NCBI RefSeq assembly: GCF_000376785.1
Contig: NZ_AQXX01000084.1
Span: 1 to 43,284, forward strand
Reading direction: 5' to 3'
DNA length: 43,284 bases
Origin: Hahella ganghwensis DSM 17046
Lineage (GTDB): Bacteria; Pseudomonadota; Gammaproteobacteria; Pseudomonadales; Oleiphilaceae
Numbering within the stretch: position 1 is the stretch's first letter; every line of letters begins with the position of its first letter. Under the pieces are notes generated by a model. The model did not search any database. It saw nothing but the letters and a program-made list of their open reading frames with translations, and was not told the origin of the DNA. Below are positions 1,846 through 12,769 of this stretch, in pieces. The translations under genes were made by a program, and so were the position numbers.

Positions 1846-2814
1846 TTAAAATTCCAGCTTTACAATGACATTGTTATCGTCTGACAACAAGTTACGATCA
1901 AGATTGAGAGTTTGATCGGCAAAGATCACATCCGGGTCATCCTGTTCGGGATGATCGTTCGGGTTACAGGTATATGCGACGGTGTACTCCACCTCGGGTA
2001 TTGACCAGAACCGGGCAAAATACGCCTCGTACTGATTTTCCAGATCCGGGTCCTCACTGTCGGAGTAATACACCGGCACGGTCATTACAGGCCTTTCGTC
2101 AGCAGGGCCATCGACATCATCCGGTTCGACATCATGGCCTGTGAACAGATAGACAGCGCCCGCATAATCCAATGCTCCTGAAGGTGTTCCGACAAGACCA
2201 CACTGGTCAGCAATCACTTCCGGAGCTATTTCGACAGCTAGCAGGTTGGCACTGCTGTAGGCGACAGATCGCAGAACAGGCTTCAGAAAGTATTCTCCTC
2301 CTGCTTCCACAATCGACTTCCGCAAATCAAAATCAACAAGAAACCCATAGCCAGAATTCCTGACCATTGTGAAGGGCGCATTAACTTTCAACCCGGATTC
2401 ACTGCCACTGGGAATATGAAGTTCGTGAGTGGCACCACTTCGAAGCTTAATATAAGAGTCAGGATTACCGTCAGTTTGGGCATCAACCTTGATGCGAAAC
2501 CAGCTGTAGTCTCCCTCCGGGATACTTTCGCTCAGAAGTTCTGCCGGAATACCGTTTCTGGTTACCTCGATAAGATCAATGCTTTTGGATTCCTCAAAAT
2601 CAAAAGATATAACGCTGCCTTCCACAGGTTTTATTTCCACACCGCTATAACTGAGTACGACCTTTGCCGCATCGTCTAACGGGGCATCAGTCACTTCCAG
2701 CACAAAACGGCCGGTTCCCGTGGTGTCTCTCGATAAGGTTTCAGTTTCGCCACCACCGCAACCTGAGAGCACTATCACTGCCATCAGAGGAACATATAAG
2801 TGGAATCGCATCAT
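1846..2814 (-). CDS. DUF4382 domain lipoprotein
   Basis: About 322 residues with signal peptide and lipobox (VLSGCGGG). After a short linker the segment starting GRFVLEVTDAPLDDAAKVVL is the N-terminal hallmark of DUF4382 (the 'TDAP.D' motif, then VEI.P...., a LIEV strand, and a PEGDYSWFRI beta-hairpin). The family is found in surface lipoproteins of proteobacteria and Bacteroidetes and has no established activity. The acidic C-terminal third (residues about 200-322) is less conserved. I start at the ATG at 2814 because an AGGG lies 6 nt before it, while the upstream ATG at 2835 has no ribosome site. It is followed by 157 non-coding bases before the next minus-strand gene and is probably monocistronic. 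Confidence 0.75.
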   Translation of the reverse strand: MMRFHLYVPLMAVIVLSGCGGGETETLSRDTTGTGRFVLEVTDAPLDDAAKVVLSYSGVEIKPVEGSVISFDFEESKSIDLIEVTRNGIPAELLSESIPEGDYSWFRIKVDAQTDGNPDSYIKLRSGATHELHIPSGSESGLKVNAPFTMVRNSGYGFLVDFDLRKSIVEAGGEYFLKPVLRSVAYSSANLLAVEIAPEVIADQCGLVGTPSGALDYAGAVYLFTGHDVEPDDVDGPADERPVMTVPVYYSDSEDPDLENQYEAYFARFWSIPEVEYTVAYTCNPNDHPEQDDPDVIFADQTLNLDRNLLSDDNNVIVKLEF

Positions 2815-3055
2815 TGCATACCCTGTATTTTCCATGGAGTTGGGTTCCGATCAAAATTCATCGACGAATCCTAGCGAGTCCGATAAAAAGAATCAGTGAG
2901 ACGCAGCCCAAATCCAAGGAAAAGGCGTATAGAATTACTATCAGGAACTAAGGAGCCTCTAAGAAACACTAGTTTTGACGCCATAAGGCAACACAGGTTG
3001 TTTTTCGAAGCTCCCGAGCGCGCCCTTTATCAAACTTCAGGATTCAGGAATATAG

Positions 3056-3748
3056 ATGGAACACCTTGCTGCAACTGTACTGTTGGTAGAGGATCACAAG
3101 CCACTGGCAGAAACCGTTATTCTGTATCTGGAGAATGCCGGATACACGCTGGATTACGCTGCTGACGGACTCACTGCTTTACATTTGGGCTCGGTCAACC
3201 GCTACGATGCCCTGATTCTGGATGTTATGCTCCCTGGTATTGATGGATTTGATATCTGTCATAAATTAAGAGAGGACGCAGGTATTGCCACTCCTATATT
3301 AATGCTGACAGCAAGAGACCATCTGGATGACAAGCTTAGGGGATTTCGCGAAGGCGCTGACGACTATCTGGTCAAGCCTTTTGATCTACCCGAGCTGGAT
3401 GCGCGGTTACAGGCCCTGATCCGCCGTCAACGCGGAGAAATGGATGAACGTATACTGCAGATCGGGCCATTGCAGTTAAATACTCGCACCATGACAGCAA
3501 CCAGAGAAGGTAAGGCCATTCGCCTGACGCCTACCGGGTATAAAATATTGAAAATCCTGATGCGTGAAAGCCCCAACCTGGTTCCCAGGGAGGCGTTGGA
3601 ACATGAACTATGGGGCGATATGGTACCCGACAGCGACACCCTCCGCAGCCATCTGTATCAGTTGCGGAAATCTGTGGATAAGCCGTTTTCAAGTCCCATG
3701 ATTCAAACCCTCCAGGGCCTGGGCGTCAAGCTGACCCAGGAGTCTTAG
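3056..3748 (+). CDS. OmpR/PhoB-family response regulator
   Basis: 230 residues. The receiver domain (about 7-120) has the acidic pair Glu12-Asp13, phospho-acceptor Asp56 in LILDVMLP, Thr85 and Lys107 in the VKPF motif, so it should be phosphorylatable. Residues about 135-228 form a winged-helix DNA-binding domain with the RLTPTGYKIL and LRSHLYQLRKSVD signatures. AGGA lies 7 nt before the ATG. The gene is convergent with the sensor kinase at 3781-5103 (32 nt between the stops), the obvious partner even though it is on the other strand. That kinase is the last gene of a lipid-modification operon, so this regulator probably controls the operon. Candidate binding repeats are at 11471-11521. Confidence 0.9.
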   Translation: MEHLAATVLLVEDHKPLAETVILYLENAGYTLDYAADGLTALHLGSVNRYDALILDVMLPGIDGFDICHKLREDAGIATPILMLTARDHLDDKLRGFREGADDYLVKPFDLPELDARLQALIRRQRGEMDERILQIGPLQLNTRTMTATREGKAIRLTPTGYKILKILMRESPNLVPREALEHELWGDMVPDSDTLRSHLYQLRKSVDKPFSSPMIQTLQGLGVKLTQES

Positions 3749-3780
3749 GGAGTTTTAACAGGCTAGATTGTGGGAAACCT

Positions 3781-5103
3781 CTACTGGCGACCAACGATCT
3801 TTCCCTGAGGGAATTCAATGGTCACCTTTGTTCCCTTGCCCACACCACTGTGCGCTTTCAACTCCCACGCGAAGCGCTGACAAATCCGTTTAACAATCGC
3901 CAGACCCAATCCATGCCCTTCCCCATCTGCCGTCCCCCGATAAAACGGTTGAAAGGCTTGGCGCATTTGTTCTTCATCCATACCCTGGCCAGTATCTTTC
4001 ACGGCAATCGTCTGATCCTCAATAATTACAGTCACGCCACCCGGTTTCTCACCTGCAGGAATACCGTGTCGAATAGCATTACGCAGGAGATTCGTTAACA
4101 GGATTGTGAGCACCTTGCTTGGTGCGGATACTTCCAGCAACGTGTGCTGTTCAAAGGTCACGGTATCCTCTGCCACCCCCAGTGCGTGTTGAGTTTGAGA
4201 GATGATGGTCGGCACCAGATCGTTCAGCAGTATCGGTGTAGAGTCCTGTTGATTGTCCTCTTCCCTGGCCATTAGCAGCAGAGTTTCTATTAGCCCCTCC
4301 ATATCCTGGACGGTTTTACGCATTCTCACCAGAACCCCTTGTCCCCGAGAAGAGAAAGATTCCATTTGCTCAAGCACATCCATTGACCCCTTAAGGACCG
4401 CCAGAGGTGTTCGCAGCTCATGAGAGGCATCACGGGTAAAGGTTCGCTCCCTTTCAATAAATAACTGCAGACGTGCCGCAAAATGCTCGATCGACGTGGC
4501 CAATGCATCAATATCCGCATCGACAGCATGAAAAGGGCGAAGATCAGAGGCCAGCGTCTCAGTATCAGGGATTCGTGAATCTTCAACCACCTTGGCCAGT
4601 TGGACCACTGGCGATATCACCCGCTGGGATTGCCGGAAAGTAAACCAGGAAGCCAGGTAAATAAGGATCAAAACCACCGTCAGAGGCGCTACCCCGAAAA
4701 ACAGCGCCAACCGGGTCACCTGTTCTTCCTTAAAAATTAAATACAGACGTTCCCCGTCTTTTTCCGATATCAGCACCAACGGGGTCTTGCCATGAAACGG
4801 ATGTCTACCGAAGCCCGGCTCCAACACTCGGAGTTCCTGAGGCAGATGCTCCAACTCACCCAGGCTTGCACGAAAGCCCTGCATATTACGGGTATTCGGA
4901 AGTGGATAATCACCATGCTGATCAACCAATTGCCAGTAATGTTCAGCTTCGCCAGTCAAAGCCTCACGAACCAGAATGTCCTCTGCTATCTTATAAGCGG
5001 CATAGACTCCAAGGGCCGTTGCCAGGCTGACCAGAGTGGCCTGTACGGCAAACACTCTGATCAACCGTGACTGTATTCCTTTTCGAGGAGACTGGGGCGC
5101 CAT
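3781..5103 (-). CDS. sensor histidine kinase, last gene of the lipid-modification operon
   Basis: 440 residues. Two membrane helices (about 14-36 and 131-153) enclose a roughly 95-residue periplasmic sensor region with no recognised domain. Then come a linker or HAMP-like region, the H-box SHELRTPL with His228, an N-box (NLLRNAIRHG), and G1/G2 boxes (KDTGQGMDEEQ, GHGLGLAIV). The ATG at 5103 follows the stop of the upstream methyltransferase gene by one base, so the two are almost certainly co-transcribed. The kinase is therefore expressed with the enzymes whose membrane product it might sense. The convergent OmpR-type regulator at 3056-3748 is the likely partner. The signal is unknown. Confidence 0.9.
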   Translation of the reverse strand: MAPQSPRKGIQSRLIRVFAVQATLVSLATALGVYAAYKIAEDILVREALTGEAEHYWQLVDQHGDYPLPNTRNMQGFRASLGELEHLPQELRVLEPGFGRHPFHGKTPLVLISEKDGERLYLIFKEEQVTRLALFFGVAPLTVVLILIYLASWFTFRQSQRVISPVVQLAKVVEDSRIPDTETLASDLRPFHAVDADIDALATSIEHFAARLQLFIERERTFTRDASHELRTPLAVLKGSMDVLEQMESFSSRGQGVLVRMRKTVQDMEGLIETLLLMAREEDNQQDSTPILLNDLVPTIISQTQHALGVAEDTVTFEQHTLLEVSAPSKVLTILLTNLLRNAIRHGIPAGEKPGGVTVIIEDQTIAVKDTGQGMDEEQMRQAFQPFYRGTADGEGHGLGLAIVKRICQRFAWELKAHSGVGKGTKVTIEFPQGKIVGRQ

Positions 5104-5104
5104 T

Positions 5105-6151
5105 TCAATTAACCGTTAACCCGTCCTGTCTGTTAAATAGATAATGGCACACAATCCACTCTCTTCCTCCCTTATACCCGAACAATTCAGCACATGACAT
5201 AAAGAACATACGCCAACGCTGAATCCAGCGTTCTGCGTTTTCTTCTCCGTATGCCTCGGCAAAAATTCTGAAAACCTCCTGCTTGTGACAGTCTAGGTTC
5301 GACAACCAGGCTTCAGCGGTTCTTTGATAATGGGTGCCGGACAAATACCATTGATGCTCCAGCTTCATATCCTGCTGAAAATGGTGGAAAGTATCCGCTG
5401 AGGGCATCAGACCACCTGTAAAGAAATACCGACCCATCCAGTTTTTCTCACCTTCAGTTTCAAAGGGATACAGTAATCGGCGATGACAAAAGATATGGAC
5501 AAACAGTTTTCCATCCTGTTTCAACCAGCCCTGAATATTTCTGAACAATTGCTGGTAATTGCGCACGTGTTCAAACATTTCAACCGAGACTACACGGTCA
5601 AAGCTTTGCTCAAGCACCAATTCATTCACATCACAGGTGATGACCTGAATATTCGTCAAACTCCGCTGCCGGGCCTGCTTTTCTATGAATTCTCTCTGGC
5701 TTTGCGAGTTGGAAACAGCCGTGATCTTGGCTTTCGGGTACTGCTCCGCCATCCACAGTGTCAGCGATCCCCAGCCACACCCCAGCTCTAAAATTTCCTG
5801 GCCATCTTCCAACTCTGCACGCTTGCCGTATATCTCCAGCATTGCTCTCTCAGCATCATTAAGGCTGTCGGTGGCTTCATCCCACCAGCAACTGCTGTAT
5901 TTGAGGTGGCTCCCCAAGACCAGTTCATAGAAGGCCGCCGGAACTTCATAATGCTGCTCGTTAGCAGCTTCCGTTTCTATGGCAATTGGACTGTCCCGCA
6001 GACTCTCCAGGCGGCGTTGATAGGATTCGCCCTCACTTTGCTTTACTATTCTGGACTCATCTCGCAACCGCTCCTGACATAACCGACGGATTCCGAAACG
6101 GATCAAGGTATCCGGCATCCACCCTTTTTCTGCCCATTGAATCATCGTCAT
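5105..6151 (-). CDS. CFAS-like SAM-dependent methyltransferase (second copy in locus)
   Basis: 348 residues. The SAM-binding core has motif I ILELGCGWGSLTLW and a following acidic region, with QHYEVPAAFYELVLG...KYSSCWW upstream. That upstream block is the counterpart of the 'HYDLGNDFY...MYSSA' block of cyclopropane fatty acid synthases (CFAS). The DRVVSVEMFEHV motif follows. It lacks the extended CFAS N-terminal lipid domain, and sequences of this shape resemble the CFAS/coclaurine N-methyltransferase subfamily. It likely methylates an unsaturated or otherwise modified acyl chain; the product is not predictable. It is 85 nt downstream of the DUF1295 gene and one base upstream of the kinase gene, inside the same operon. 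Confidence 0.8.
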   Translation of the reverse strand: MTMIQWAEKGWMPDTLIRFGIRRLCQERLRDESRIVKQSEGESYQRRLESLRDSPIAIETEAANEQHYEVPAAFYELVLGSHLKYSSCWWDEATDSLNDAERAMLEIYGKRAELEDGQEILELGCGWGSLTLWMAEQYPKAKITAVSNSQSQREFIEKQARQRSLTNIQVITCDVNELVLEQSFDRVVSVEMFEHVRNYQQLFRNIQGWLKQDGKLFVHIFCHRRLLYPFETEGEKNWMGRYFFTGGLMPSADTFHHFQQDMKLEHQWYLSGTHYQRTAEAWLSNLDCHKQEVFRIFAEAYGEENAERWIQRWRMFFMSCAELFGYKGGREWIVCHYLFNRQDGLTVN

Positions 6152-6236
6152 ATTCGGTACGCCTCTCTAACTTGAGTTAATACATATAATCGGAGTAAGC
6201 CCACTCCCAATGTGCGTTAATACTTCCAAACCAGGC

Positions 6237-7016
6237 TTATTCCGCCCTTGGCTTCCAGGGAAAAAACATTGATGTTGTTCGCTGGTAACGACGGTAGGCA
6301 TCCCCACGCCTTCGCAAGGCCTGTTGCTCGGTAAATGGAATACCAGTAACAAAGTAGAGAAAAATAAACATAACCGCTGGTGCCAGCCACAGCCAACTAC
6401 CGCCCGCTGTGGAAACTCCAAGTAGGGGGTAGGCAAACCAATGGCACCATTCAAAGAAATAATTTGGATGTCGGGAATAGCGCCATAAGCCGGACTGGCA
6501 GACTTTCTGATCATTGTCGGCGGTCTTCTTGAAACGCAGCAACTGGGCATCAGCCACCGATTCCCCCCACCAGGCAACCAGGATGACAGTACTTGCCGAG
6601 AACACACTCCAAAGTGGCGGCCACTGCCCATCTGCCAATACCCAGGCAGGTAAGGTAAATATCCATACCCAACTGGCTTGCATCAGATAAAAACCCAGAA
6701 AGATGACAGATGACCTGCTTCCGGCCCAACGGCGCATATACAGATAACGACCATCCTCTTCGGCATCGCGTAAAAGTCTCACTGTCAGGTGCCACCCAAG
6801 CCGTCCAAACCAAACCAGATAGATCACCCCGACAAGCAAGCGCAAAGCCATATCACCAGTGCCGGCATACAAGTAGCAGACAGCCAGTATTGCCACACTA
6901 AACGCCCACAAAACATCCACCCAGCCGGCGTTTTGCTGTTTTTCCTGAATCCACCATCCCAGAAGAAATACAGGTATGAGGACTAACGCTGCCAACATCA
7001 GTATATGAACCGACAT
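6237..7016 (-). CDS. DUF1295 family membrane protein (steroid 5-alpha-reductase/isoprenylcysteine methyltransferase-like)
   Basis: 259 residues with about six hydrophobic segments. The C-terminal signature GLWRYSRHPNYFFEWCHW is diagnostic of DUF1295 and of the wider fold shared with steroid 5-alpha-reductases and isoprenylcysteine O-methyltransferases. The motif binds NAD(P)H or SAM in characterised relatives. DUF1295 proteins are frequent members of CFAS/DUF1365/amine-oxidase clusters in gammaproteobacteria, which suggests a reductase or methyltransfer step on a membrane lipid; the reaction itself is unknown. The gene is 9 nt downstream of the CFAS gene. Confidence 0.8.
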   Translation of the reverse strand: MSVHILMLAALVLIPVFLLGWWIQEKQQNAGWVDVLWAFSVAILAVCYLYAGTGDMALRLLVGVIYLVWFGRLGWHLTVRLLRDAEEDGRYLYMRRWAGSRSSVIFLGFYLMQASWVWIFTLPAWVLADGQWPPLWSVFSASTVILVAWWGESVADAQLLRFKKTADNDQKVCQSGLWRYSRHPNYFFEWCHWFAYPLLGVSTAGGSWLWLAPAVMFIFLYFVTGIPFTEQQALRRRGDAYRRYQRTTSMFFPWKPRAE

Positions 7017-7025
7017 GTCACTGCC

Positions 7026-8270
7026 TCAACCTTTTATCCACTGGCTGCGACGATTACCCGGTTTCGCCAGCATCATGTGAACATTGCTGATCGCCCGCTC
7101 TCTGAATCCTCCTTCACAATAACTGAGATAAAACCGCCACATACGAACGAATCTGTCATCAAATCCTTGTGCCAGAACTTTCTTCACCCGTGTATTGAAG
7201 CGCTGCTGCCAGTCATATAGCGTTTGTGCATAGCTGGGCCCAATGTCCTCCAGATTAGTAAGCCTTAGACCGGCCTGAGCAGAACTGGAAGTCAACACAC
7301 TCACACAGGGAATAAAGCTGCCCGGGAATATGTATCGTTTGATAAAATCTACAGTCCTTAATGCCTGATGATATCGGGTATCATCAATGGTAATGGCCTG
7401 GATTACCGCCAGGCCATCTGGCTTGAGCAGGCTGGAGATTTTTTCGAAGTAACCATCAAGATACTGGTGCCCGACAGCCTCAACCATTTCTATTGACACC
7501 ACTTTCTCATAACAGCCAGTCAGATCCCGGTAATCTTTTTGCAACACGGTCACCCGGTCTTCCAGGCCTTCAGACCTGACCCGTTCACTTGCTGCACTGA
7601 ACTGCTCATTGGAAATCGTCGTGGTTGTGACCCGGCATCCAAAGTTCCTGGCCGCATAGATCGCCATGCCTCCCCACCCGGTTCCAATTTCCAGAAGATG
7701 ATCATTCGGCCCCAGTTCCAGTTTACGACAGATATGATCAAGCTTGGCCAGGGAGGCCTCTTCCAATGTTTCCTCTCCCGTAATATACAACGCTGAGGAA
7801 TACATCAGGTTGCTGTCCAGGAACAGCCTGAAGAAATCATTGCCAAGATCATAATGTGCCGCGATATTCTTGCGTGATCCCGCTCGAGTATTCCTGTTCA
7901 GGGCATGCCAGGCTTTGGCCAAACTCGCTGCCACAACGGCCACTCCACTTTCCATGGCATCCAGATTCCGGCGGTTACGAAGTAATAGCTGAACCAGTCC
8001 GGTCAGATTATCTGTATCCCAATCACCATCCATATAGGCTTCCGCTGCACCATTACTGCCGCCGATCAGCAATCTGCGATAGGCTTTGATATGGCGGATA
8101 GTCAATACCACTCTGAGTCCATCCTCGGATGGTGATCCCAGTTGAATACTTTCCGCGCCTTCCTTAACAATCAATATTCCCCCCTCTAGCCCCTGACACA
8201 TGCGCAGGAAAAGTTTTTTTGCCCAGGATTCGACTGCACCGATTGAACTGACAGATGTTTCAAGCTGCAT
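7026..8270 (-). CDS. cyclopropane-fatty-acyl-phospholipid synthase family protein
   Basis: 414 residues, full length for the family. The N-terminal lipid-binding domain (about 1-130) includes YMDGDWDTDNLTGL. It is followed by the CFAS signature HYDLGNDFFRLFLD with MYSSALY, SAM motif I LEIGTGWGGMAIYA, VSIEMVEAVGHQY and the substrate-loop motif RYIFPGSFIPC. The family transfers a methylene or methyl group from SAM to the double bond of phospholipid-bound acyl chains. Relatives in amine-oxidase/DUF1365 clusters have been linked to methylated or furan fatty acids instead of plain cyclopropanes. The ATG overlaps the stop of the upstream DUF1365 gene (TAATG), showing translational coupling. Confidence 0.88.
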   Translation of the reverse strand: MQLETSVSSIGAVESWAKKLFLRMCQGLEGGILIVKEGAESIQLGSPSEDGLRVVLTIRHIKAYRRLLIGGSNGAAEAYMDGDWDTDNLTGLVQLLLRNRRNLDAMESGVAVVAASLAKAWHALNRNTRAGSRKNIAAHYDLGNDFFRLFLDSNLMYSSALYITGEETLEEASLAKLDHICRKLELGPNDHLLEIGTGWGGMAIYAARNFGCRVTTTTISNEQFSAASERVRSEGLEDRVTVLQKDYRDLTGCYEKVVSIEMVEAVGHQYLDGYFEKISSLLKPDGLAVIQAITIDDTRYHQALRTVDFIKRYIFPGSFIPCVSVLTSSSAQAGLRLTNLEDIGPSYAQTLYDWQQRFNTRVKKVLAQGFDDRFVRMWRFYLSYCEGGFRERAISNVHMMLAKPGNRRSQWIKG

Positions 8271-9160
8271 TACACACCTCCATTCACAATATTCTTTTTC
8301 TCACAATCATGCTCCAGGTCGGAACCTTCATGTTTTTTCGGGTGAACATGTTTTTTCGGATGAGCCTGTTTTTTCGGATGGGTATAGAAAGGCACTTTTT
8401 TCAGCCAAAGACGCAGGGCCTGCCAATAGATCGCAGACAAGACTTTCAGGCAATGCATTGGGTAACCAAAACTTGCCCTCAAAGCCGCGGCGCCATCTAA
8501 CGGCAACCTTTCCAACGCGAGGCTGGCATCAAACCATTGTTCGTTTTCACGATTTAATTTCATGTGCACGAAAATCCTGCTTTTATCCAGCCGGAATCGC
8601 CACTGATAACGTAGATTCATCGGCATAAACGGAGAGACATGAAACGCTTTATCAAAATCGAAACGAACAGTCTGGGGACGGTAACTGACATCATCGGACT
8701 CCGCTTTTTCCGGATTTTCTACTAGGGTCTCTTCTGAAGTGACAGGCAAGACGTAGGCGTATCGTTCATCCCAGGGGGTATTATTAATTTCCGCGACAAT
8801 CGCATAAAGAACCTCCCGGCGGTCAAAGCAGAAATAGAATACGACTGGATTGAAGCAAAATCCCCAATTGCGAAGGTGTGCGAGCATCACGACACGCCCC
8901 ATTTTACTTTGCAGGCCTGACGCTTCCAGTCGCCTATATACCGCAGTCTTAAGATCAGGAATACCGGGGTCCAGATAATCCTGCCTTCTAAAACTGGTCA
9001 GACTGAACCTTCCGGTGGACCAGGAAGGAAGTTTGTCAATCAGAGGGATTTCGTCCAGATCCAGCCATACCATGCTAGTGCGATATTGAAAGTGGTGTTC
9101 TTGAGGAAGATGTCGACGGTGACGGACACTGCCCTGACACAAGCCACTATGCAGCAACAT
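8270..9160 (-). CDS. DUF1365 domain protein with His/Lys-rich repeat tail
   Basis: 296 residues from the ATG at 9160, chosen because a GAGGAGG precedes it at good spacing and because the protein then starts like other DUF1365 members (short lead, GSVRHRRHLPQ, HHFQYR, VWLDLDEI). Further family motifs are NPVVFYFCFDRR, INNTPWDERYAY, KAFHVSPFMPM and YQWRF. DUF1365 proteins co-occur with CFAS and FAD amine-oxidase genes; no reaction is established. The final 36 residues are unusual: three consecutive HPKK units, encoded by an 18-bp tandem repeat, then a charged tail, making a possible metal-binding or flexible extension. The gene overlaps the oxidase gene upstream by 14 nt and the CFAS gene downstream by 1 nt. 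Confidence 0.85.
   Translation of the reverse strand: MLLHSGLCQGSVRHRRHLPQEHHFQYRTSMVWLDLDEIPLIDKLPSWSTGRFSLTSFRRQDYLDPGIPDLKTAVYRRLEASGLQSKMGRVVMLAHLRNWGFCFNPVVFYFCFDRREVLYAIVAEINNTPWDERYAYVLPVTSEETLVENPEKAESDDVSYRPQTVRFDFDKAFHVSPFMPMNLRYQWRFRLDKSRIFVHMKLNRENEQWFDASLALERLPLDGAAALRASFGYPMHCLKVLSAIYWQALRLWLKKVPFYTHPKKQAHPKKHVHPKKHEGSDLEHDCEKKNIVNGGV
8329..8382 (-). repeat. three 18-bp tandem repeats inside the DUF1365 gene
   Basis: Three adjacent 18-bp units (8329-8346, 8347-8364, 8365-8382) share the core TGTTTTTTCGG on the plus strand. Read on the coding strand, each gives HPKK followed by two variable residues. Each unit carries a run of six T/A bases, so the repeat could gain or lose whole units in frame, or slip out of frame in the homopolymer. 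Confidence 0.8.
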
Positions 9161-10484
9161 CAGCACGTTCCTCCTCAATCATGGAGACCACATCCAGGGC
9201 ACTGTTTACCCCGTCTTCATGGAAGCCCCACCCCCAATAGGCGCCGCAGTAAAAAGTATTGTTATCTCCGTTGATTTCTTTCCTTCTTGCCTGGGCACGC
9301 AAAGATGCGTGGGTGTATACCGGATGATGATAAGTTCTCTCCGCCCAGATCTTTGACGAATCTATAGTCTGTCCGTTACCCAGGTTACCGTTCAGCGTAA
9401 CGATGAAAGGCTGTTCAACCGGGATGCTCTGTAAAAGGTTCATCCAATAACTCACAGAACAACGTCCGTCTGAAGAGGCCGGAATCCTCGCATTCCAACT
9501 AGCCCACGCCCGTCTGTTAGAAGGCATCTGACCGACGTCCGAATGCAATATCACCTGGTTTTCCTGATAAGGAATAGAACCAAGAATTTCTCTTTCGGCT
9601 GTCGATGGATCCTGCAAAATTCGCAACGCTTGATCACTGTGACAGGCAAAAATCACGGCATCGAATCTCTCAATGCCAAATGCAGATGTTTCAACGCTCA
9701 CTCCTTGACCATCCCGAGTGACTTTCTTAACCGGGCAGGATGACCGGACAGCCCCCGGGAACCGATCAAGAATGGCCTTCACATATCTGGAGGAGCCGCC
9801 GCGTACCGTTTTCCACTGTGGTCGGCCATCCAGTTGCAACATGCGATGGTATTGCATGAATGAAACGAAGTAATGCAAGGGAAACTCTTCGATAATTTCA
9901 GGCGACGCGGACCATAAAGCACAGGCCATGGGGAGAATATGGTTTTCAATAAACACCTGACTGTATTTTTGCTTGCGGAGGTAAGACCCCAGCGTCTCTT
10001 CCCCACTACAGCTGTCCAGCACTGAAGGCGCTTCCCGATAAAAGCGCAACAAATCCCAAAGCATTCTGTAGAATCGTGGGCTAATGAGGTTCCGGCGTTG
10101 TGCAAAAAGACGGTCAAATCCTTCCGCGCCGTATTGCATACCAGTCCTTTCATTCACGGCGCTGAAGCTCATGTTGCTGTCCTGCCAGGCAACGTCTAAT
10201 GACCTGAGCATTCGGGTAAAGCTTGGATAGTTGTGTTCATTAAAAACAATGAAGCCCGTATCCACTGACAATGTCTGCTCACCCACCTGAACCGTGTGAG
10301 TGTCTGTATGGCCACCGAGATAGCCGTTGGCTTCAAACAGTGTCACATCGTGTCCTGGCCTAGAACTCCCCGAAGACACACTGCCAGAATGACCAGCCGA
10401 CTTTGCTTCTGGCCCTGAAGCACCACTGAGATAATACGCCGCCGTCAATCCGGAAACGCCCCCACCGATGACTGCAATCCTCAC
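9147..10484 (-). CDS. FAD-dependent amine-oxidase-like protein (NAD(P)-binding)
   Basis: About 445 residues. It begins with a dinucleotide-binding fold, AVIGGGVSGLTAAYYLSG, then FEANGYLGGHTDT and VDTGFIVFNEHNYPSF, typical of the amine-oxidase or desaturase-like flavoproteins that accompany DUF1365 and CFAS. The C-terminal FAD motif is YCGAYWGWGFHEDGVNSAL. I start at GTG 10484: it overlaps the desaturase stop as GTGA and has GAGGAGG 6-8 nt upstream, which beats the farther upstream GTG. Oddity: a Ser/Gly-rich insert of about 22 residues (positions 22-43) sits between the first helix and second strand of the Rossmann fold, where relatives have only a few residues. The likely role is oxidation or dehydrogenation of an acyl chain, next to the methyltransferase steps. 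Confidence 0.85.
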   Translation of the reverse strand: MRIAVIGGGVSGLTAAYYLSGASGPEAKSAGHSGSVSSGSSRPGHDVTLFEANGYLGGHTDTHTVQVGEQTLSVDTGFIVFNEHNYPSFTRMLRSLDVAWQDSNMSFSAVNERTGMQYGAEGFDRLFAQRRNLISPRFYRMLWDLLRFYREAPSVLDSCSGEETLGSYLRKQKYSQVFIENHILPMACALWSASPEIIEEFPLHYFVSFMQYHRMLQLDGRPQWKTVRGGSSRYVKAILDRFPGAVRSSCPVKKVTRDGQGVSVETSAFGIERFDAVIFACHSDQALRILQDPSTAEREILGSIPYQENQVILHSDVGQMPSNRRAWASWNARIPASSDGRCSVSYWMNLLQSIPVEQPFIVTLNGNLGNGQTIDSSKIWAERTYHHPVYTHASLRAQARRKEINGDNNTFYCGAYWGWGFHEDGVNSALDVVSMIEEERADVAA

Positions 10485-11422
10485 GACAGCACCTCCTCGA
10501 CAACAGTTGACTTTGTTCCGGTCCGATGGGCCCACTTCTTGCGCTCAGGAACCGCTCTTAAATCCCAAATCAACCCGCACCACTGCATAATTTTCAGTAA
10601 ATAAAAGCTGATATCGATTTCCCACCAGAAAAACCCCTGTCGGGCCGAGCCGGAAAAGTGATGATGGTTGTTGTGCCAGCCCTCTCCAAGGGTGATCAAT
10701 GCCAGCAACAAATTATTTCTTGAATCATCTGGCGTTTGATAACGACGACTCCCAAAGCGATGCGCAAAGGAATTGATCGCGAGCGTGGCGTGAATCAATA
10801 TCACAGTGGAAACACAATATCCCCAGATAAACATTTGCAGGCCGGAAGTCTCCAACTGCGGCAAGAACAGACTCAGCATGTCCCCCGCGATCCAGAGTGT
10901 TACACCCAGAATCACTGGGACAAACCAATCATAACGGTCAAGCCACTGCAGTTCGGGATACTTGGCAAAGTCCCGAATGAGATCAAAATTTGTCTCAAAG
11001 TAACGTTGACCGAGAAACCAACCACAATGACTCTGCCAGAAGCCATGGCGGGGCGAATGCGGATCTTCTTCTGTATCCGACGTACGATGGTGAAACCTGT
11101 GGTGGGACGCCCACCAAAGTGGTCCGCGCTGAGTTGCAGAAGCCCCAAGTATGGCAAACGCAAATTGCAAAGGCCGAGATGTCTTAAAAGATTTGTGAGA
11201 GAAGTAACGATGATAGAAGGCGGTAATCGCGAACATTCTCACCAGATAAAGGATCAGGGCCGTCACCAGAGCGGTCGCACTCCACCCCACCCACAGAGTC
11301 GCCAGACAAAGCAAGTGAATTGCGACAAACGGCCAGACTCTTACCCAGTCCACGGAAAGACTTTGATGGTCAGCGTCGGACAGCTCCCCGATACCGTGGT
11401 CTCGATGTTTGTACTGTTTCAT
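10481..11422 (-). CDS. membrane fatty acid (acyl-CoA delta-9 type) desaturase
   Basis: 313 residues. It has the three histidine boxes of membrane di-iron desaturases, HRYFSH, HHRFHH and HNNHH, between hydrophobic segments. The family introduces a cis double bond (usually delta-9) into acyl-CoA or lipid-bound acyl chains using O2 and electrons from a ferredoxin or cytochrome partner. It is the first gene of the minus-strand operon, so the operon starts by making a double bond and continues with enzymes that act on double bonds. A 17-bp palindrome lies in its 5' leader and regulator-type repeats lie further upstream. Confidence 0.9.
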   Translation of the reverse strand: MKQYKHRDHGIGELSDADHQSLSVDWVRVWPFVAIHLLCLATLWVGWSATALVTALILYLVRMFAITAFYHRYFSHKSFKTSRPLQFAFAILGASATQRGPLWWASHHRFHHRTSDTEEDPHSPRHGFWQSHCGWFLGQRYFETNFDLIRDFAKYPELQWLDRYDWFVPVILGVTLWIAGDMLSLFLPQLETSGLQMFIWGYCVSTVILIHATLAINSFAHRFGSRRYQTPDDSRNNLLLALITLGEGWHNNHHHFSGSARQGFFWWEIDISFYLLKIMQWCGLIWDLRAVPERKKWAHRTGTKSTVVEEVLS

Positions 11423-11438
11423 TGAAATCCATCTTCCT

Positions 11439-11455
11439 GCTCAAACCTTTTGAGC
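11439..11455. promoter_or_regulatory. 17-bp palindrome in the 5' leader of the desaturase gene
   Basis: GCTCAAA-CCT-TTTGAGC is a perfect 7-bp inverted repeat with a 3-nt centre, 17 nt before the desaturase ATG and just ahead of its AGGAAG ribosome site. It could be a repressor operator or an RNA hairpin affecting translation. No T-tract follows, so it is not a terminator. Confidence 0.45.
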
Positions 11456-11470
11456 ATCCTAAAAAGCCCC

Positions 11471-11521
11471 ACGTGAAAAAAACGTGAAGAAATCCATCTA
11501 TTTTATTCACACTCACTTCAC
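11471..11521. promoter_or_regulatory. two pairs of GTGAA direct repeats, 11-bp phased: candidate OmpR-family regulator boxes
   Basis: ACGTGAA occurs at 11471-11477 and 11482-11488. The same core in the other orientation (TTCAC) occurs at 11506-11510 and 11517-11521. Each pair has an exact 11-bp period, and the pairs face each other. OmpR/PhoB-type regulators bind tandem half-sites with this one-turn spacing. The site lies between the two divergent transcription units of the lipid locus, which contains such a regulator. Confidence 0.55.
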
Positions 11522-11567
11522 CCCTGGATTCATATCATCCTCTTAAAAGATCAAGAGATACCGCAAT

Positions 11568-12194
11568 ATGAAAACCGGGCATGCAATCAGTCACCTGATC
11601 CACCATATTCGTGAGCGTTTTTTCTGCCGAACAGCCTGTTATATCTATGCACTCATTACTTTAGTTTTTGGTGCTACCGGATGTTCATCCTCCCCCAGCA
11701 GTCAGGCCTATGAAGACTACCTCCGGCTCGCACCTGCCGGAACCTTCGATCCTCCCACCACAGATGACCGACTGGGAGGCTTTGTCACTTTATTCAGTTC
11801 ATTGGATACAGAACATATCACCCAAGAACTCGACAACGTTTACGCTGAAAAGCTCTACTTCAACGACACTTTCCACGTCATCACAGACAGACCCAGCCTC
11901 AAGTTGTACATGTTAAGTCTGGCAGAAAACTCAGAAACCACCGTCAGATTTCTAGATTCCGTGTCAAAAGGGAATGACGCCTGGCTGAGATGGCACATGC
12001 GGATACGCTTCAAGTTATGGTGGAAAGATCTGGACATTCAGTCCGTCGGCATCACCCATCTACGATTCGACCAGCAGGGCAAAATCATTTTGCATCAGGA
12101 TTACTGGGACAGCACCGAGGGCTTCTACGCTCACCTTCCTATTATCGGTTCTCCGATCAGAGCCATCCGCTCCCAGTTGGGCCCCGACAGTTAA
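11568..12194 (+). CDS. NTF2-like (SnoaL-type) lipoprotein of the lipid locus
   Basis: 208 residues: a long basic N-terminus, a hydrophobic stretch (about 24-38) and lipobox GATGC. The mature domain (about 65-200) looks like the NTF2-like/SnoaL cone fold: LYFNDTFHVITDRPSLKLYM, then WLRWHMRIRFK and GITHLRFDQQGKIILHQDYWD, the last being the typical closing beta segment. NTF2-like proteins of this kind are regular members of CFAS/DUF1365/amine-oxidase clusters in gammaproteobacteria. The gene is divergent from the desaturase operon and shares its control region. Role in the pathway unknown; a lipid-binding or isomerase-like pocket is possible. Confidence 0.7.
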   Translation: MKTGHAISHLIHHIRERFFCRTACYIYALITLVFGATGCSSSPSSQAYEDYLRLAPAGTFDPPTTDDRLGGFVTLFSSLDTEHITQELDNVYAEKLYFNDTFHVITDRPSLKLYMLSLAENSETTVRFLDSVSKGNDAWLRWHMRIRFKLWWKDLDIQSVGITHLRFDQQGKIILHQDYWDSTEGFYAHLPIIGSPIRAIRSQLGPDS

Positions 12195-12205
12195 ACAGGT
12201 TAATC

Positions 12206-12769
12206 ATGCGTCGTCTTAATGCTCTCATCTGGAATGCCCTGTGGATCGCGCAAATCCTCCCATCAATTAGCCTGGCGGACACTGCACCTAAAGCCGGCTT
12301 CAGCCTCAGCCACGAGGTCCATCAATTAAAGCTGCAACGATGCGGTGTCGCTACGCTCAAAGCCTACGGAATCTTCACTGTCGGCCAGAGTGCACTGTAC
12401 CGACAGACCTGCCATGCCACTTGGTCAGCATCAGACATCGAGCCCATCCATATGGTATTTCAGTACAATAGAGCAATACCTGCAAAAGCCTTCCGAGAAA
12501 GTGCAATGGAGATTATGCAGCGGAATATCAAATTGAATTCCGAAGAGATTGGCACTCTCAATCAATTCCACCAGGCCTACCAGCCTGTTGAGGCAGGAGA
12601 TACCTACTCCATCACTTACTTCCCGGAGACTGGCCTTCAACTCCAACTGAACGGAAACCTGTTGGCAACGTTAAAAGATCAGGAACTCGCACGAGAATAC
12701 TTCAACATCTGGCTGGGAGAAGACCCCTTTGATGACCGCCTGAAACGCCAACTTATGCATTCGGAATGA
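12206..12769 (+). CDS. chalcone isomerase-like periplasmic protein
   Basis: 187 residues with a cleavable signal peptide (cleavage near SLADTAP). The start at ATG 12206 lies 11 nt after the upstream stop; the frame is open further upstream, but only this start gives a signal peptide. The mature part has the chalcone-isomerase-like layout: LQRCGVATLKAYGIFTVGQSALY, VFQYNRAIPAKAFRES, an Asn/Glu-rich helix region, then GDTYSITYFPETGLQLQLNG and FNIWLGEDPFDDRLKRQL at the end. The last motif is highly characteristic of the bacterial chalcone-isomerase-like family (PF16036), which binds fatty acids in eukaryotic relatives. It follows the NTF2-like gene and probably serves the same lipid pathway. Confidence 0.8.
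   Translation: MRRLNALIWNALWIAQILPSISLADTAPKAGFSLSHEVHQLKLQRCGVATLKAYGIFTVGQSALYRQTCHATWSASDIEPIHMVFQYNRAIPAKAFRESAMEIMQRNIKLNSEEIGTLNQFHQAYQPVEAGDTYSITYFPETGLQLQLNGNLLATLKDQELAREYFNIWLGEDPFDDRLKRQLMHSE

Follow-up and report, generated by a model that had tools for sequence, protein, structure and literature searches.

The window analysed here, 43,284 nucleotides long, is contig C84 (NZ_AQXX01000084.1) of the 6.56-Mb genome of Hahella ganghwensis DSM 17046. This article deals with a minus-strand lipid operon in it, whose last gene encodes a sensor histidine kinase, together with the convergent gene of a response regulator; these two genes are called the pair below. The operon begins with a membrane fatty-acid desaturase gene (10481-11422; FA_desaturase, with a DesA-family NCBIfam match below the cut-off), followed by a flavin amine-oxidase-like gene (9147-10484; Amino_oxidase, 79 bits; its GTG start was read from the sequence), a DUF1365 gene (8270-9160; PF07103, 267 bits), a first CFAS-like methylase gene, CFAS1 (7026-8270; CMAS, 270 bits), a gene for a steroid-5-alpha-reductase-like DUF1295 membrane protein (6237-7016; PF06966, 190 bits; Steroid_dh, 34 bits), a second CFAS-like S-adenosylmethionine (SAM) methyltransferase gene, CFAS2 (5105-6151; CMAS family), and the kinase gene (3781-5103; HisKA and HATPase_c). 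The OmpR-type, ColR-like regulator (3056-3748; Response_reg and Trans_reg_C) is encoded on the plus strand. Two further plus-strand genes diverge from the operon: a SnoaL/NTF2-like gene (11568-12194), whose SnoaL_2 match of 23.7 bits lies under the cut-off of 27 and whose N terminus appears by eye to be signal- or lipobox-like, and a chalcone-isomerase-like (CHI) gene (12206-12769; Chalcone_3, PF16036, 70 bits).

Computation thus established the gene order and the protein families, and the reading frames, order and strands in a preliminary description made from the letters alone agree with Pfam. The one-base gap between CFAS2 and kinase (5104), the 32 nt between kinase and regulator (3749-3780), and the overlaps GTGA (10481-10484), 14 nt (9147-9160) and TAATG (8268-8272) were likewise found in the sequence as described. 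A weak terminator-like hairpin (6192-6207, minus strand) is located between DUF1295 and CFAS2 and could attenuate the CFAS2-kinase part; the terminator scan returned 15 candidates against 9.7 expected (standard deviation 3.6). A general sigma-70 scan was uninformative (9 found, 10.7 expected).

The operon families had been named correctly in the preliminary description, although their match to the furan-fatty-acid (FuFA) pathway (UfaD, UfaO and UfaM) had been overlooked there. Papers are cited below from the portions of their text that were available. According to PMC7380195, the CFAS-like methylase UfaM, the NAD/FAD-type desaturase UfaD and the DUF1365 protein UfaO suffice for a monomethyl FuFA (9M5-FuFA) in Rhodobacter, and a second SAM-dependent methylase, FufM, leads to the dimethyl form in Rhodopseudomonas palustris. 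The corresponding families (Amino_oxidase, DUF1365 and CMAS) stand together in the operon of the window. The amine-oxidase-like protein may accordingly be a UfaD-like methyl-acyl desaturase, the DUF1365 protein a UfaO-like member of the putative furan-forming monooxygenase family, and CFAS1, by family and neighbourhood, a UfaM-like fatty-acyl methylase. From families and gene order we infer that the operon is probably a FuFA-type cluster. CFAS2, which shares 25% identity with CFAS1 over 260 columns, is possibly FufM-like.

The two signalling proteins have the composition of an OmpR/EnvZ-type system, that is, a REC plus winged-helix regulator and a membrane HisKA/HATPase kinase (Pfam; model helices). 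In the kinase model (mean predicted local distance difference test score 76.5), a small sheet is flanked by two long helices (10-62 and 127-175), which are consistent with transmembrane segments around a periplasmic part of about 65 amino acids. No sensor domain or family was matched by this part in Pfam. The ExxE metal-binding motif is absent from it; four of 16 aligned kinases have ExxE, at differing places. A stretch of EAEHYW...PNT type is common to the FuFA-clade kinases in the alignment. The model is usable but gives no clue to the signal, as all 50 listed PDB matches belong to kinases or to related signalling structures and reflect the kinase core.

Promoter boxes between the divergent units and in relatives

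The divergent promoter (11456-11538) contains two outward-facing boxes, TTCACR-N5-TTCAC; in both cases a TANNNT stands 10 bases further on. They were found by scanning for an 11-bp-phased direct repeat that was first noticed at 11472. Box 1, TTCACG-N5-TTCACG with the -10 element TAGGAT (11456-11488, minus strand), would form the regulator-activated promoter of the operon, and box 2, TTCACA-N5-TTCACC with TATCAT (11506-11538, plus strand), that of the SnoaL/CHI unit; both are exact copies of the composite of box, 10 bases and TANNNT. Such a spacing between box and -10 element is expected where an OmpR-type activator replaces the -35 element, as in PhoB-type promoters.

The composite occurs in only three exact copies in the whole genome, two of them in the window, and with one mismatch in two further places; the reversed-pattern control gave none. 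The third exact copy is located upstream of a paralogous ColR-like regulator and kinase (L273:4151-6180; G000:C124, about 71.1-73.2 kb), which are followed by the gene of a 322-aa protein. Cross-talk of this paralogous pair with the FuFA promoters is possible.

Conservation of the boxes was analysed in relatives, where 26 loci carry the pair beside FuFA-type genes. Upstream of FuFA-type genes, exact pairs of TTCAC occur 25 times at the 11-bp distance, in 18 of these 26 loci, while the other 34 distances (6-40) gave three in total. Fifty-nine FuFA/CFAS2 loci without an adjacent kinase had none at 11 bp and seven at all other distances. When up to two mismatches of 12 were allowed, the box was present in all 27 loci tested (the 26 and Acinetobacter sp. 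ANC 3781, L195), with 53 boxes altogether. At an offset of exactly 10 bases from the box, TANNNT is found in 23 of the 53 (three at the next best offset) and the relaxed NANNNT in 50 of 53; the latter figure compares with 20 of 98 for boxes at other places in these loci and with two of nine for upstream boxes in 55 loci without the pair. Both boxes of the window are conserved in relatives that have the pair, and no box was detected upstream in four same-genus loci without it (2,007 bp scanned). It should be emphasized that the loci without the pair were picked by kinship, CFAS2 match or listed DUF1365 matches, not at random.

The regulator gene of the window has no such repeat upstream (best 4-5 mismatches), therefore feedback in the window would run through the kinase. 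In family f43, which is taken as Alcanivoracaceae, a TTGAC/TTGAT-type repeat with NANNNT precedes the regulator gene in 14 of 15 loci (10 at two mismatches, four at three). For genomes of family f28 in which kinase and regulator lie apart from the FuFA genes, regulation of these genes in trans was considered but is not supported: six of their FuFA loci (L137-L142) are without paired boxes, and L140-L142 each have only a lone box with one mismatch, some 3.7 kb away from the FAD gene.

The ColR consensus YYNASNNYTTTTTSAC was derived from seven DNase-footprinted sites of P. putida (PMC2689224, available part). Box 1, TTCACGTTTTTTTCAC, fits it and is its only match in the 43-kb window (11473, minus strand); box 2 does not match.

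Distribution of the pair and of other regulators at comparable loci

At a threshold of 1e-40, with up to 45 candidates scored per genome, a kinase match was obtained in five of 38 genomes including H. ganghwensis, and in three of seven within the genus; at 1e-45 and up to four candidates per genome it was obtained in at least 38 of the 390 genomes of the order. Among 41 kinase-homologue loci (the window and 40 fetched), the kinase adjoins FuFA-type genes with a convergent regulator in 26. These belong to the genus of the window (3), to another genus of its family (one genome, L055), to f28 (one genome, L057), f41 (L058), f39 (L061, L076, L077), f35 (L089, L090) and f43 (15 genomes). L195 groups with the f35 loci L089 and L090. 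In the 25 FuFA-linked loci that were fetched, the regulator homologues are 48-90% identical and their genes run convergently to the kinase gene; conservation of the OmpR-type partner was what the preliminary description had proposed to look for. The SnoaL/NTF2-like gene is also conserved beside the pair in relatives. The arrangement goes beyond chance, since several families have the same pair at loci of FuFA type.

Several loci were left out of the 26: L088 (DUF4397, regulator and kinase codirectional beside FuFA genes, kinase 32% identical, no box at up to two mismatches), L086 (kinase 33%, no regulator match, beside a 22% DUF1365 match) and the fragment L136. L189 (Alloalcanivorax marinus) and L072 (G340, f43) come from one genome, with an identical kinase row, and were counted once. 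The partial or broken loci L188, L193 and L203 from metagenome-assembled genomes were excluded from the counts; the contig of L188 begins inside DUF1365 and shows no regulator match after the kinase, and the regulator of L203 is codirectional. Some of these have features of their own. L136 (G121:C27:1-9032) contains a second partial CFAS2 copy and then a short kinase-like match, in the same genome as the complete cassette L057. The kinase frame of L203 stops after 60 codons while the similarity runs on (9239 and 9989-10171), and an exact box with TANNNT precedes its regulator gene. Eight f43 loci (L060, L062, L066, L068-L070, L072, L074) have a GAF plus GGDEF-like gene between kinase and regulator, as called by Pfam for the L060 protein and by tblastn for the other seven.

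The FuFA-linked kinases fall in one 36-row group of the kinase tree (99/98) together with seven others, and the FuFA-linkage label requires two changes, compared with a shuffled mean of 22.1. The kinase of G121 (f28) stands inside the genus group of the window and apart from the other f28 kinases. Over 23 loci the distances between kinases correlate with those between CFAS2 proteins (r = 0.93), a value that comes without a species-tree null.

The whole operon without the pair is present in G001, G002, G005 and G006, all of the same genus. Here CFAS2 is followed by a DUF4382 gene (L093-L096); in the window its tblastn match, a DUF4382-like gene (1846-2835, minus strand), lies beyond the regulator, and so it is the same site apart from the pair. 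CFAS2 was detected in 44 genomes of the order and the kinase adjoins it in 20.

Control of FuFA genes is documented via RpoE-ChrR and LitR-type regulators (PMC7380195, PMC6852236, PMC9758184), and the FuFA genes are core targets of ECF11, a group of ECF sigma factors, in the accessible text of PMC6852236. Proteins from L143 and L120 served as probes for these regulators. No ECF or ChrR gene was found by tblastn in the whole window, nor at any of the 26 loci with the pair, two of which (L071, L073) also have LitR. Among the 55 other FuFA/CFAS2 loci, 21 adjoin such regulators: ECF sigma and ChrR genes stand at 13 (L098-L101, L111, L112, L143-L147, L149, L152) and a LitR-like MerR-B12 gene at eight (L117, L120, L137, L138, L140-L142, L148), seven of which also have a photolyase gene. 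The layout of L071 and L073, where LitR-photolyase-FAD-DUF1365-CFAS1 stands beside a two-component DUF1295-CFAS2 module, suggests separate control of two lipid modules. The ECF11 promoter consensus is TGATC[CT]-N16-20-CGTA. Upstream, a motif of this kind was found in nine of the 55 other loci, but neither in the 26 that have the pair nor in the four same-genus loci (0/26 vs 9/55, Fisher p 0.05, a value that ignores kinship).

Proposed control of the operon and its alternatives

We consider it likely that a ColRS-like pair took over the control of FuFA-type lipids, and that the locus is a self-regulated lipid cassette with the kinase in positive feedback. The kinase would phosphorylate the convergent regulator, which would bind the two 11-bp-phased TTCAC direct repeats, stand in for the -35 element and switch on both divergent units; since the kinase is encoded in the operon that it would help to activate, positive feedback would result. 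At FuFA loci of several gammaproteobacterial lineages the pair would hold the place that ECF11-ChrR or LitR has at others. Control by the resident pair and a feedback layout had both been proposed in the preliminary description; the former gains from the paired boxes that track the pair, the latter from the position of the kinase gene inside the box-driven operon. On the sequence comparisons this regulatory reading appears well supported.

There are nevertheless several observations that weigh against it. The window sites match the composite by construction, as the box was first seen there and the pattern was written with them in view; their own match is thus uninformative, and what counts is how rare the composite is elsewhere and how well it is conserved in relatives. 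Without the -10 element, the box does not rise above background in the genome (84 places at up to one mismatch, 92 for the reversed pattern); of the two, only the full composite was specific. The loci are related (15 of 26 in one family) and the sample is non-random, so that Fisher values overstate independence and serve as a guide only. CFAS2 lacks an adjacent kinase in 24 of the 44 genomes, and none of the 23 such loci inspected (all except that of G146) has a kinase match. Neither ECF-ChrR nor LitR is in the fetched stretch at 34 of the 55 other and all four same-genus loci, hence the cluster can run under other control. The preliminary description had regarded related loci lacking the pair, or a pair mainly near unrelated genes, as evidence against its proposal. 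The former exist, in four of seven same-genus genomes, where the boxes are missing too; as to the latter, 13 of the 41 kinase-homologue loci have no FuFA gene in the fetched stretch (one of them, L091, is of little use as its contig measures 5.5 kb), against 26 with FuFA genes. Eight of these 13 (L056, L063, L078, L079, L082, L084, L085, L087) have a DUF4397 gene instead, with a TTCAC-type box (up to two mismatches) upstream of it in all eight and tandem runs in L056, L085 and L087. These 13 loci would favour a chance neighbourhood of pair and operon with no link between them, but the repeated co-occurrence in several families, the promoter boxes and the joint absence of pair and boxes make this highly improbable.

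Another ColR-family regulator, such as that of the paralogous pair in G000:C124, might read the boxes while the resident pair mainly serves other targets. The paralogous regulator is identical to that of the window at 111 of 230 aligned positions; its almost identical recognition helix and the third exact composite, which precedes its gene, also count against the resident pair. ColR itself uses a consensus that box 1 matches. Across families, however, boxes in the FuFA promoters go together with the resident pair, and same-genus loci without the pair lack them, so we hold this explanation to be improbable. It is quite improbable that a ChrR-controlled ECF sigma encoded elsewhere still drives the operon, with the pair as a fine-tuner or passenger. 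The sigma pair is absent at the locus as had been claimed, yet ChrR is encoded elsewhere in the genome (C144:17564-18172) and also in G003, G004 and G010, which share the kinase-FuFA arrangement; this, with the ECF11 dependence of FuFA genes (PMC6852236), is what such a view could call upon. On the other hand, the ECF11 motif is lacking upstream at the loci with the pair, and 22 of the 23 genomes of the order with the arrangement have no ChrR match (E <= 1e-10), H. ganghwensis being the exception; ChrR is present in 214 of the 390 genomes. The pair may also control an operon whose products are other methyl-branched or cyclopropane lipids. The enzyme functions are taken from family and gene order, and the fetched stretch of 13 of the 15 f43 loci contains CFAS2-DUF1295 and the pair without UfaD/O/M-type genes, which gives this alternative a real chance; it is still unlikely, as the trio sufficient in Rhodobacter (PMC7380195) is complete in the operon of the window.

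That the kinase senses membrane state, as put forward in the preliminary description, is conceivable. The signal could be photo-oxidative or a related envelope signal, which is suggested with low confidence. This is favoured because a DNA photolyase gene stands between regulator and kinase, beside FuFA-type helper genes, in three f39 loci (L061, L076, L077), because LitR-type regulators of Pseudomonas mediate the response of ufaM and photolyase genes to light, which is an induction (PMC9758184, available part), and because a CFA-synthase gene of Vibrio is induced by blue light in dependence on ChrR and MerR (PMC5241685, available part). A wider proposal can be put forward only tentatively: a dedicated two-component system might sense membrane damage or lipid state and drive FuFA-type synthesis in a closed positive-feedback loop, and the cassette (operon, divergent helper genes, kinase, regulator and boxes) might have replaced ECF11-ChrR in several lineages and moved between families as a unit, the last point being based on the position of the G121 kinase in the tree.

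FuFA are membrane lipids tied to damage by light and oxygen, and here one lipid-defence module is found beside three unrelated regulators. Since the regulator is defined, the promoter element is 33 bp long and the regulon is predicted to be small, the signal for FuFA-type lipids becomes directly testable in bacteria without ChrR such as the sampled Alcanivoracaceae.

Comparison with known systems

The results point to a third mode of bacterial FuFA control besides the RpoE-ChrR and LitR types. No paper linking a two-component system to FuFA genes was found in a search outside which most subscription journals lay; in the available text of the nearest, PMC5442454, NtrYX is connected with the amount of lipid and ChrR with the furan acid. 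Each part of the arrangement is known, and the novelty is that a ColRS-like two-component system would serve a FuFA-type cluster as its dedicated regulator.

Compared with ufaM, ufaD and ufaO of Rhodobacter sphaeroides and R. palustris, as presented in the available text of PMC7380195, the same trio stands together in the window and a second methylase is in the operon as FufM is in R. palustris, whereas desaturase, DUF1295, SnoaL and CHI genes are added and a two-component system stands at the locus instead of RpoE-ChrR. The ECF11 (RpoE)-ChrR pair of other FuFA clusters adjoins the same type of genes as the pair of the window, but no ECF or ChrR gene is at this locus and the promoter motif differs. 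LitR, PplR and PmlR of Pseudomonas, which control ufaM and phrB, are one-component, light-linked regulators without a kinase (PMC9758184, likewise in part).

In signalling type the pair resembles ColS-ColR of Pseudomonas and RaxHR/VgrSR/DetSR of Xanthomonas, which are OmpR/EnvZ-type pairs as in the window. The window kinase is 27-29% identical to full-length Pseudomonas kinases of the L206-L216 group, which are not confirmed as ColS; the FuFA kinases stand apart from this group in the tree, its loci not being confirmed as colRS, and the ExxE of the ColS-type periplasmic part is not in the window kinase. As far as the available portions of PMC2689224 and PMC8306577 describe them, the ColS-ColR-type systems have membrane-lipid-related targets in common with the window, but here the targets would be of FuFA type instead of lipid A, and the genes of kinase and regulator are arranged convergently.

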